A stretch of 64,000 nt of DNA, taken from NCBI RefSeq assembly GCF_000165425.1, contig NW_001799522.1, positions 248,001-312,000 on the forward strand, written 5' to 3'. Positions within the stretch are counted from its first letter, which is position 1. Each line of letters opens with the position of its first letter. Shown here one piece after another: positions 21,280 to 25,088 of the stretch. A program made the position numbers and the translations under genes. The notes below the pieces were generated by a model. It saw only the letters and a program-made list of their open reading frames with translations. It had not been told where the DNA came from and searched no databases. The DNA is from Paramecium tetraurelia (lineage: Eukaryota > Ciliophora > Oligohymenophorea > Peniculida > Parameciidae).

Positions 21280-23212
21280 ATGTCTTCTTTGTTTAAGGAA
21301 GTGCCACTCCAGAAAGTGATTGCAAACAAGGCATAAGTAACAGTAACTATATTAGATAGAAAATAGCCATTCTTGTAATGATGTTAAAAGATATACAAAA
21401 GGAAGAGGAGGAAATTTTGAAATAATTTAACAAAATGACTAAAGATGCTCGAACGATCAATGAATTGTATGAGATTATGGAAATGATTAACTATGAAATG
21501 AGTGTGAGAAATGATGACAAAATGATGATCTTAGATGAAATCACTCATCAAGAAGAGTTGTTGTAAGTGCTTGAATATATTAAAGATTGACAGAGTCGGC
21601 GAGTCTATAGAAACATATCAATAGCATATCCAAAGACCTGGAGACATCAGAGAAATTCTAATAAACAAGATCTTTACGTTAAACTGGGAGATTCCTATAA
21701 TTCAATCACAATAATCACAATTTGAATGTTGAGACCAAAATACTATAATCAAATATAATTACAAGTTACGATTTTGAAGAGTAATCAAAGTTGAATGACA
21801 AAATCCAAGATAACATATTCAATGACCCAATCAAATATAATACACAAGAGGGAATCGATGAAACATAAGTTTATGATTGGATACTTGACATAGATCTTAT
21901 AAACAACGTTCAATAAGGGTGGACAGTCTATATTAGCAAGTAGTTCTAGGCAAACAAAGAGTTGGTTGGATTATCTAATAGCGATAACAAGGCTCAAATA
22001 AAATGGGAAGGAGCCACAGTTGCAGTAGTAGGATTGTATGATAAGGGTAAAACGTTTGTCTTGAACAATCTAACTTAATCTAATTTGCCATCTGGAAAAA
22101 AGGTAACAACCAAAGGAATTTCATTTAAACATGTTGATGTCGATTCAGGTACTCAATTAATTTTGGTTGATACTGCTGGAAGCTACTCTCCTGTCAAAAT
22201 TCAGTCAGCCATGAGTATTGTGGAAAAAGAGGCTACTGAACATTTCATCATTGATTTAGTGTTTGAGTTGAGTGACTATTTCATATGCGTTGTAAATGAC
22301 TTTACTTCACTTGATCAGAGATATCTGGATAGATTATCAAGGTATATTTAGAATAGTTCGAAAACATTCAGAGAAATAATTGTTGTTCACAATTTGAAGG
22401 AAGTTGAAACTGCTGAGATATTACAGCATGTTTGGACAACCTAAGTGACTTAGATATATTCAACTGGTGGATCTATCCAAAGAACTAAGGTTGCAGCCAC
22501 TAATCCAAGAATAAATGAATTGTAAGAAAAACATGTTCTATGGTTTAAAACCCAATACACTAGACATGTTTGTTTAGTTAGTGATGACAGTCAATTAGGA
22601 TTGGATGTGAATCCTTGGGTCTTTTCATTGTTGAAGTACTGGCTAAAAGCAGTCTTTGTTCCAGTTAATCGACAATTCTCTGTTTGTGAAAATATCCTCC
22701 AATATGCAACTAGTAAACTTACACAGTATTTCAAAAGAGAAGTCAATGTTAAATTGATAGATACTGATAACTAATTTGTTAAGAAAATCGTGTAAATGGA
22801 GGCTGATCTATAGGATGGAGAACTTAAGATACCTTAGACAAACATTGATCAATCTGGACTCATTTTAGCCAGACCTGATTCGTTTGCTCCTGCTACTGAT
22901 ATCATAGCTAATGACAAATACATTATCTATATGGATGTACCTGGAATCAATGAAGAGGATATTGAAATGTATAGATAGAATGTAGTTACAATTGTTAAGG
23001 GTAATAGAAAAAAACCTTATTAAGAGGAACAAAGTGATCACATTAAGAAATAGGAGAGAAAATATGGAGAATTCACTCTAAGTTTTAGGATTCCTGAAAA
23101 TTTTGAAAGGAAATGGAAACATTTTGGAATTGAAAATGGAGTATTGAAAATTGTTTATGAAAAAGATAAAGATGATATCATTCCGAGCAAATTTGTTAAT
23201 TAAGCAGAATGA
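21280..23212 (+). CDS. GTPase fused to a C-terminal Hsp20/alpha-crystallin domain
   Basis: About 628 aa if the start is ATG 21280 with a 23-nt intron at 21337-21359; 603 aa if it starts at ATG 21378. A further intron lies at 21563-21585. Residues about 30-220 are helical and acidic. Near residue 235, VAVVGLYDKGKTFVLNNL is a P-loop; then KKVTTKGISFKHVDV (switch I with the conserved Thr), LILVDTAGSYSP (DTAG), FICVVNDFTSLDQRYLDRLS and IIVVHNLKEVE in the G4 position. This order resembles dynamin/GB1-RHD3-type large GTPases. Residues about 515-610 form a complete Hsp20 domain: YIIYMDVPGINEEDIEMYRQ, YGEFTLSFRIPENF, then GIENGVLKIVYEKD with the A-x-x-x-G-V-L-type motif. Both domains look intact. The inferred role is a nucleotide-driven chaperone or membrane remodeller. 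Confidence 0.85.
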
Positions 23213-23289: not shown

Positions 23290-25088
23290 ATGCAATAATT
23301 CTAACAAATTTAAGAACCTGATTGTTTCATTTGTGCTTGCGGTTTCTCTTGTCAATACATAAAGGAGAAGGAAATGGAAATGCATATCGATTCTTGCCCT
23401 GTATATAGTGCTTACAGCGAATTTATGAAATATATTGAGAGGAAGGATATTTAAAATGCAAATGAAGATCAACTTAGAATAATGAAAGCAGAAGCAAAAG
23501 TGTACGTATCCAGATTAGAGATGATGCTAATGATTTGTACTAATCAATTTAATCTAAAATAGATTCTCAATAATAATAACCTATGTTACAGAAGGCTCCT
23601 TCATAAACAGTTCAATGCGAAAAATGCAAGAAGCAGTTCGAAGCCAATTCCGATTTTGATAAGGTTTGGTATTTAGAAAATTGTTCACATATCATATGCA
23701 AAGATTGCATGTTGAATATTTGTAAAGACGACTTTTTGCCCAAAAAAAGCAATGTAACTTGTGTATGTGGGGAGAGATTCAAGGACGAGGAGATTAAATA
23801 AATCTTGGGAAGAGACCTATATGAACAATTGACCGAGAAACTGAATTTGTCATTATAGAATATTATCGAATGTTGTCATTGCAAGGAACGATTCTGTTTC
23901 CAGAAAGGCAATATAGAGGAAAAGATATAGGATTAGAATGGAAAATTGGTGCAGGGATAACAATTGAAACATTACATTGAAAATAGGTTTAAATGCTCTA
24001 AGTGTCATACTGAGTAATGTAAGAATTGTATGAGCATACCATATCACACAAACATGACTTGTGAAGAATATAAAATTAATAAGGCAGCAGTAAAATGCAG
24101 ATTATGTGAGTAACCAACAGAAATATAAAAAAATCAACCTGAAGCATTATAAACAATATGTTCACAACAGGAGTGTCAAAATAGAGCTAAAAATTTATGC
24201 ACTCTTAAATTAGCATGTGGACATTTTTGTCAAGGAATAAAGAACACTCCTTGTTTGCCCTGTCTGAATGAGAAGTGTGCCAAGGATTAAAATGAAGAAG
24301 ACTATTGTAATATATGCTTTACAGAAGGATTAAAATCACAACCTTGTGTTTAGACTACGTGTGGACATGTATCTTTCAATACTATTATTAGATATTCCAT
24401 GAAGATTGTTTAAGATAAAAGTTAGAGGCTAAATGGAATGGTCCAAGAATTGTATTCAACTTTATGAAATGTCCTTTATGCAACAAATTTTTGGATATCC
24501 AAGTGCCTCATTTCAAGAAGTCTATTGAATAAGGGTAGATTTTATTGAAAGAAGTGCAAGAATTGTGTTTACAGAGATTGAAATTAGAGGAAAAAGAGAA
24601 GGATAAAGAATTATTGGATCCTACTCATTAGTTCTTCTAAAAACCATTGGATTATGCCATGCATATCTATTGTTATTATTTGTGTTTCAAATGCAAAAAA
24701 CCATATTTTGGAGGATTGAAAAATTGTTAATAAGCAGCAGATCAAGATCCAAAAGTAGAGTTCAAGTAGGAAGACTTAGTTTGCACAAAATGCTGTCCAT
24801 TGTTGACTCTTGAGGATAAGTGTAATAAACATGGAGTTGATTATATTGATTTCAAATGTAGACATTGTTGTTCAATTGCATTATGGTGGTGTCAGTATGA
24901 TATTAATGTTATTGTTTAGTGGTACAACTCATTATTGTGATCCTTGTCATAGAAACATCAAAACTAATATGACCAAACCATGTCCAGGAGTAGGAAAATG
25001 TCCTTTAGGAATTCCCCATAAGCCTAATGGTGAGGAAATGTCGTTAGGTTGTTCTTTATGTAGAGCAGAAAGGTTGAAAGCCAAATGA
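23290..25088 (+). CDS. E3 ubiquitin ligase with RING/IBR-like module and MYCBP2-type tandem-cysteine domain
   Basis: 574 aa after introns at 23537-23562 (26 nt), 24369-24391 (23 nt) and 24895-24919 (25 nt). An N-terminal zinc finger ([20 protein letters not shown] ... HIDSC) precedes a Cys-rich RING/IBR-like block ([28 protein letters not shown], then CCHCKERF and CSKCHTEQCKNC). A second RING starts [14 protein letters not shown] with [11 protein letters not shown] and CPLCNKF. The last 160 residues follow the tandem-cysteine domain of MYCBP2/Highwire: [56 protein letters not shown] and [18 protein letters not shown]. In MYCBP2 this domain relays ubiquitin between cysteines and esterifies Thr/Ser. 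Relay cysteines seem present, but exact residues need alignment. Its 3' end is 31 bp from the convergent MFS gene. Confidence 0.85.

Follow-up and report, generated by a model that had tools for sequence, protein, structure and literature searches.

The gene at positions 21280 to 23212 belongs to a family of nine copies in which an N-terminal region, a TRAFAC-type GTPase domain, a conserved linker and an alpha-crystallin domain form one predicted protein. The likeliest reading, to which we assign a probability of roughly 0.4 on the basis of architecture and conservation, is that the protein forms a GTP-switched assembly in which the alpha-crystallin domain dimerises or binds clients. The window is the whole stretch of 64,000 nucleotides that was analysed, positions 248001 to 312000 of contig C191, from a genome of 69.07 Mb in 231 contigs.

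The ciliate gene has three exons on the + strand and encodes 628 residues. The coordinates are its exact ends, from the ATG at 21280 to the TGA at 23210-23212. It is read in the ciliate code (code 6), where TAA and TAG encode Gln and TGA is the stop, and 25 TAA or TAG codons lie inside the frame of exon 3. Both 23-nt GT..AG introns are predictions that use the reading frame and conservation in two near copies; the start codon and both introns have counterparts in these nearest copies, C153 and C175. Together with the ciliate code and the pairs of near-duplicate genes, introns this short suggest that the organism is a Paramecium; the available portion of PMC5014332 gives a length of about 25 bp for Paramecium introns. 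The initial annotation spoke of one exon, which holds for both domains, located entirely in exon 3, and fails for the gene, which has three. Its description of a fusion in an unbroken frame was borne out, both domains lying in the single exon-3 ORF in an order conserved among the copies. The features are as follows.

21280..23212, + strand: whole gene, 628 aa; TAA/TAG = Gln, stop TGA
21280..21336, + strand: exon 1; ATG start conserved in both nearest copies, C153 and C175
21337..21359, + strand: intron 1, 23 nt, GTA..TAG, predicted
21360..21562, + strand: exon 2, N-terminal region without a Pfam match
21563..21585, + strand: intron 2, 23 nt, GTA..AAG, predicted; C153 and C175 have a CAG end here
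21586..23212, + strand: exon 3, with GTPase domain, linker, alpha-crystallin domain and stop
22016..22342, + strand: GTPase domain (extent of the Pfam MMR_HSR1 match; the G4-like position lies beyond)
22031..22054, + strand: P-loop (G1) GLYDKGKT, residues 236-243; identical in nine of nine copies
22169..22180, + strand: G3 DTAG, residues 282-285; identical in nine of nine copies
22382..22402, + strand: degenerate G4-like VVHNLKE; V[VI]HNLK[ED] in nine of nine copies
22610..22663, + strand: linker motif NPWVFSLLKYWLKAVFVP; NPWxxSLLxYWLKxVxxP in nine of nine copies
22910..23176, + strand: alpha-crystallin (HSP20) domain, from Pfam

A coiled coil was considered for the N-terminal region and rejected as unsupported, its heptad score being reached by 190 of 500 shuffles for residues 1-178 and by 132 of 500 for residues 20-110.

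Profile searches had been set beforehand as the test for both domains, and HSP20 and MMR_HSR1 both scored above their cut-offs, with all nine copies matched. On the exon-3 ORF, the Pfam results were HSP20 at 1.1e-13 (51.6 bits, cut-off 20.8), MMR_HSR1 at 3e-9 (37.4, cut-off 21.9), which is the best-scoring Pfam GTPase family, and GBP at 1.7e-5 (24.5, cut-off 21.1) over a stretch of 63 residues; Dynamin_N (22.8) and FeoB_N (17.2) stayed below their cut-offs of 27. The P-loop, switch-I Thr, DTAG and G4-like position noted earlier were all located, with switch-I TTKG at residues 261-264 and HNLKE at residues 355-359. A full alpha-crystallin domain had been placed 300 residues after these GTPase motifs, in agreement with the HSP20 match, which lies approximately 290 residues on from the GTPase and is preceded by approximately 520 residues in all. 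Two single-sequence AlphaFold2 predictions had mean pLDDT values of 32.9 and 34.5, and the structures are not usable.

A search of the organism's own genome gave 15 matches, which resolve into nine genes, each on a contig of its own, with a shared domain order and near-constant spacing. From GTPase to alpha-crystallin domain, the other eight copies are 98, 93, 63, 63, 70, 70, 44 and 45% identical to the window copy. HSP20, MMR_HSR1, GBP and Dynamin_N were each matched at E ≤ 0.01 in every copy, and G1, the switch-I Thr-Lys/Arg-Gly (TT[KR]G) and G3 are preserved throughout. The linker motif between the two domains is likewise strongly conserved. In four of the nine copies, predicted introns of 23–28 nt, with lengths that are not multiples of three, lie within the alpha-crystallin domain: C199 and C101 have one each there, and C224 and C225 each have one in the domain and one in the linker. 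Because these introns shift the frame, the product of these four copies needs a spliced single message. For the six copies further removed from the window copy, the N-terminal portions are unreliable, as are some introns (19, 31 and 35 nt) predicted there.

Purifying selection is very strong between near copies. With our own counting script, dN/dS between the window copy and C153 is 0.071 for the N-terminal region and 0.011 for the GTPase domain, and there are zero amino-acid changes in the linker at a dS of 0.63 or in the alpha-crystallin domain at a dS of 0.81. The other near pairs give 0.018 (C199/C101), 0.008 (C225/C224) and 0.033 (C39/C4). Between distant copies the constraint is weaker, for example 0.287 for the linker against C225; many dS values between the window copy and distant copies are saturated, and the computable ratios range from 0.164 to 0.386.

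These observations bear on whether the fusion is an artefact of the gene model, arising from two genes read through as one or from an assembly join. The recurrence of the fusion on nine contigs with order and spacing maintained, the unchanged amino acids of the linker relative to C153, and the match between the flanks of C153 and those of the window copy make an artefact extremely improbable. Downstream, the two flanks agree at 81% across 981 columns and, upstream, at 87% across 492, as expected for a whole-genome-duplication pair. The Cys-rich downstream neighbour (23466-24467, + strand) matches a RING profile weakly (zf-RING_5 at 1.6e-4, under its cut-off).

The GTPase domain is a TRAFAC-type P-loop domain that to some extent resembles guanylate-binding proteins (GBPs). 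It shares with GBPs and the dynamin superfamily the pattern GLYxxGK[ST], TKG and DTxG, in an alignment that reaches the next helix. It also resembles Era- and IF2-like TRAFAC GTPases, since MMR_HSR1 has the best Pfam score and the PDB match to Era is of similar strength to that of GBP, but the KH, translation-factor and ribosome-binding domains of those proteins do not appear in the Pfam listing. In a profile comparison with sets from the same genome, where the set names other than GBP were assigned by inspecting sequences and the pairwise E-values are uncalibrated, the GBP set scored 54.3 over 99 columns, the longest alignment, followed by an IF2-type set (48.2 over 56) and an Era-like set (42.0 over 63), with the remaining sets lower. 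The nine-copy profile matched GBP5 (0.0064) and mitochondrial Era (0.0072) in the PDB, both weakly. The identity as a large, GBP-like GTPase proposed in the initial annotation is therefore upheld in part: GBP is above cut-off and gives the longest profile alignment, while an IF2-type GTPase comes near it in score.

GBPs carry an arginine finger in the P-loop. That position is Asp in all nine fused copies; in the same genome, 11 GBP exons were examined and all nine that cover the P-loop have Arg; in four weaker GBP-like matches the residue is Ser. The G4 consensus [NT]KxD is replaced by HNLK[ED] in all nine copies, with the Asn kept, Lys changed to Leu, and Asp or Glu at the final place, and this degeneracy leaves the guanine specificity uncertain. 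The fused protein differs from GBPs also in its alpha-crystallin C-terminus and in the GBP helical domain, which was not among the Pfam matches up to E 10 (the HMMER filters drop most weak matches). We regard the GTPase as probably GBP-leaning and not a GBP. The genome is rich in true GBP-domain genes, with 41 GBP exon matches, a few of which are the fused genes; its long GBP-like proteins have P-loops of the form GRQSSGKS, GKQSSGKS or GPQSSGKS.

We judge it unlikely that the protein is a fusion GTPase or membrane remodeller of the GBP/atlastin kind that carries an alpha-crystallin domain as its tail. The GBP matches in the window protein and in all nine copies, the switch-I sequence TKG[IV] and the 99-column alignment speak for such a protein; against this stand the P-loop Asp, the helical domain that was not found, the higher score of MMR_HSR1 and the nearly equal score of the IF2-type set. 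A transmembrane anchor was looked for and was not supported, the highest 19-residue hydropathy in the nine copies being 1.17 to 1.36, with no transmembrane-like stretch, which also speaks against remodelling.

The C-terminal domain is an alpha-crystallin domain of the bacterial and plant type. The best PDB matches of the nine-copy profile are bacterial and plant small heat-shock proteins, the top one being 5j7n_A at 5e-11, and the PG, ERKYGxF and GVL stretches align with 5j7n and with wheat Hsp16.9 (1gme). Small heat-shock proteins have a small subunit with little beyond the alpha-crystallin domain and short arms, and a C-terminal I-x-I/V motif. The fused protein, in contrast, has 628 residues including a GTPase, most of them ahead of the domain, and lacks the motif: no [IV]x[IV] occurs beyond the GVxxI strand in any of the nine tails, of which those of C199 and C101 are modelled with only eight residues. 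We therefore find that the protein, as predicted, fits neither parent family cleanly, given the missing I-x-I motif, the P-loop Asp, the undetected GBP helical domain and the degenerate G4.

No clear heat-shock element was found upstream of the window gene, C153 or C175, where shuffled sequences equalled the score in 344, 497 and 32 of 500 cases, respectively. Together with the lack of a transmembrane-like stretch, this argues against the stress and membrane parts of the function proposed earlier, which was a holdase under nucleotide control or a membrane remodeller that responds to stress.

The alpha-crystallin domain may also be a mere adaptor. It is quite possible, and deserves serious weight, that the protein is a housekeeping GTPase whose alpha-crystallin domain serves as a rigid module for protein binding or dimerisation, as in SGT1, DYX1C1 and ATOM69, without general holdase activity. 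The lack of a clear heat-shock element and the missing I-x-I assembly motif are consistent with this, and the near-absolute conservation of GTPase, linker and alpha-crystallin domain suggests specific partners. There is also precedent, in that the available part of PMC6197667 describes alpha-crystallin-like domains joined to other domains in SGT1, NudC, DYX1C1 and ATOM69; the word 'GTPase' is absent from its main text. Unlike the domains of these co-chaperones, however, the domain here is HSP20 proper and not CS: its score is that of a true HSP20 domain, its best PDB matches are small heat-shock proteins, and the CS-domain family is not among the Pfam matches.

We return to the GTP-switched assembly. 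G domains of the GBP/dynamin type and alpha-crystallin domains dimerise in their parent families, and because two such modules occur in one chain, joined by a partly invariant linker, nucleotide-controlled assembly, with clients or partners bound by the alpha-crystallin domain, would be the most economical reading. The GTPase would either be a switch or dimerise through its G domain, and the alpha-crystallin domain would provide a second dimerisation module that also binds clients, with the nucleotide state controlling both the assembly of the molecule and the holding of clients. In ordinary small heat-shock proteins the I-x-I tail motif controls assembly; with no such motif here, that role may fall to the GTPase. 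That the protein binds nucleotide, assembles and works as a holdase is predicted from its sequence.

A search of the genome with PF00011 at E ≤ 10 gave nine matches, all above cut-off and one per fused gene, and NF042420 found the same nine. Neither search found a separate Hsp20 gene; they were six-frame, unspliced and limited to the best candidates, so that an intron-cut or very divergent separate gene could escape, and the intron-split halves of the fused domains were still detected at 21.7 to 23.4 bits. Genome searches with NF041800 and NF008013 gave zero matches, which says little because the fused copies were missed too. The CS domain, a relative of the alpha-crystallin domain, has seven matches in the genome. 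It is rather doubtful, but conceivable, that GTPase fusions make up the whole Hsp20-type holdase repertoire of this ciliate lineage, with GTP binding and hydrolysis replacing the I-x-I and phosphorylation controls to give a nucleotide-gated small heat-shock chaperone.

The fusion was not found in the literature searched or in the prokaryote, viral, plasmid and phage collections. Narrow pattern scans confirmed no relative among 42 pattern stretches in GTDB genomes, or among 1 and 39 in viral contigs. Of 1315 matching plasmid records, none matched over 80% of the query, and the 20 matches listed cover the alpha-crystallin end or this domain plus linker; all three matching phage records cover the alpha-crystallin domain only. 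Our literature search found no paper pairing an Hsp20 domain with a GTPase domain, and the available portions of PMC12220480, PMC9416717 and PMC6197667 do not show the fusion. The domain pair may well be visible already in automatic ciliate genome annotations.

To our knowledge, small heat-shock proteins are taken to work independently of nucleotides. With a conserved GTPase and an alpha-crystallin domain joined in one protein, nucleotide control of a holdase can be tested directly. If stand-alone Hsp20 proteins are truly missing from this genome, the family would also bear on how a eukaryote copes without ordinary small heat-shock proteins.
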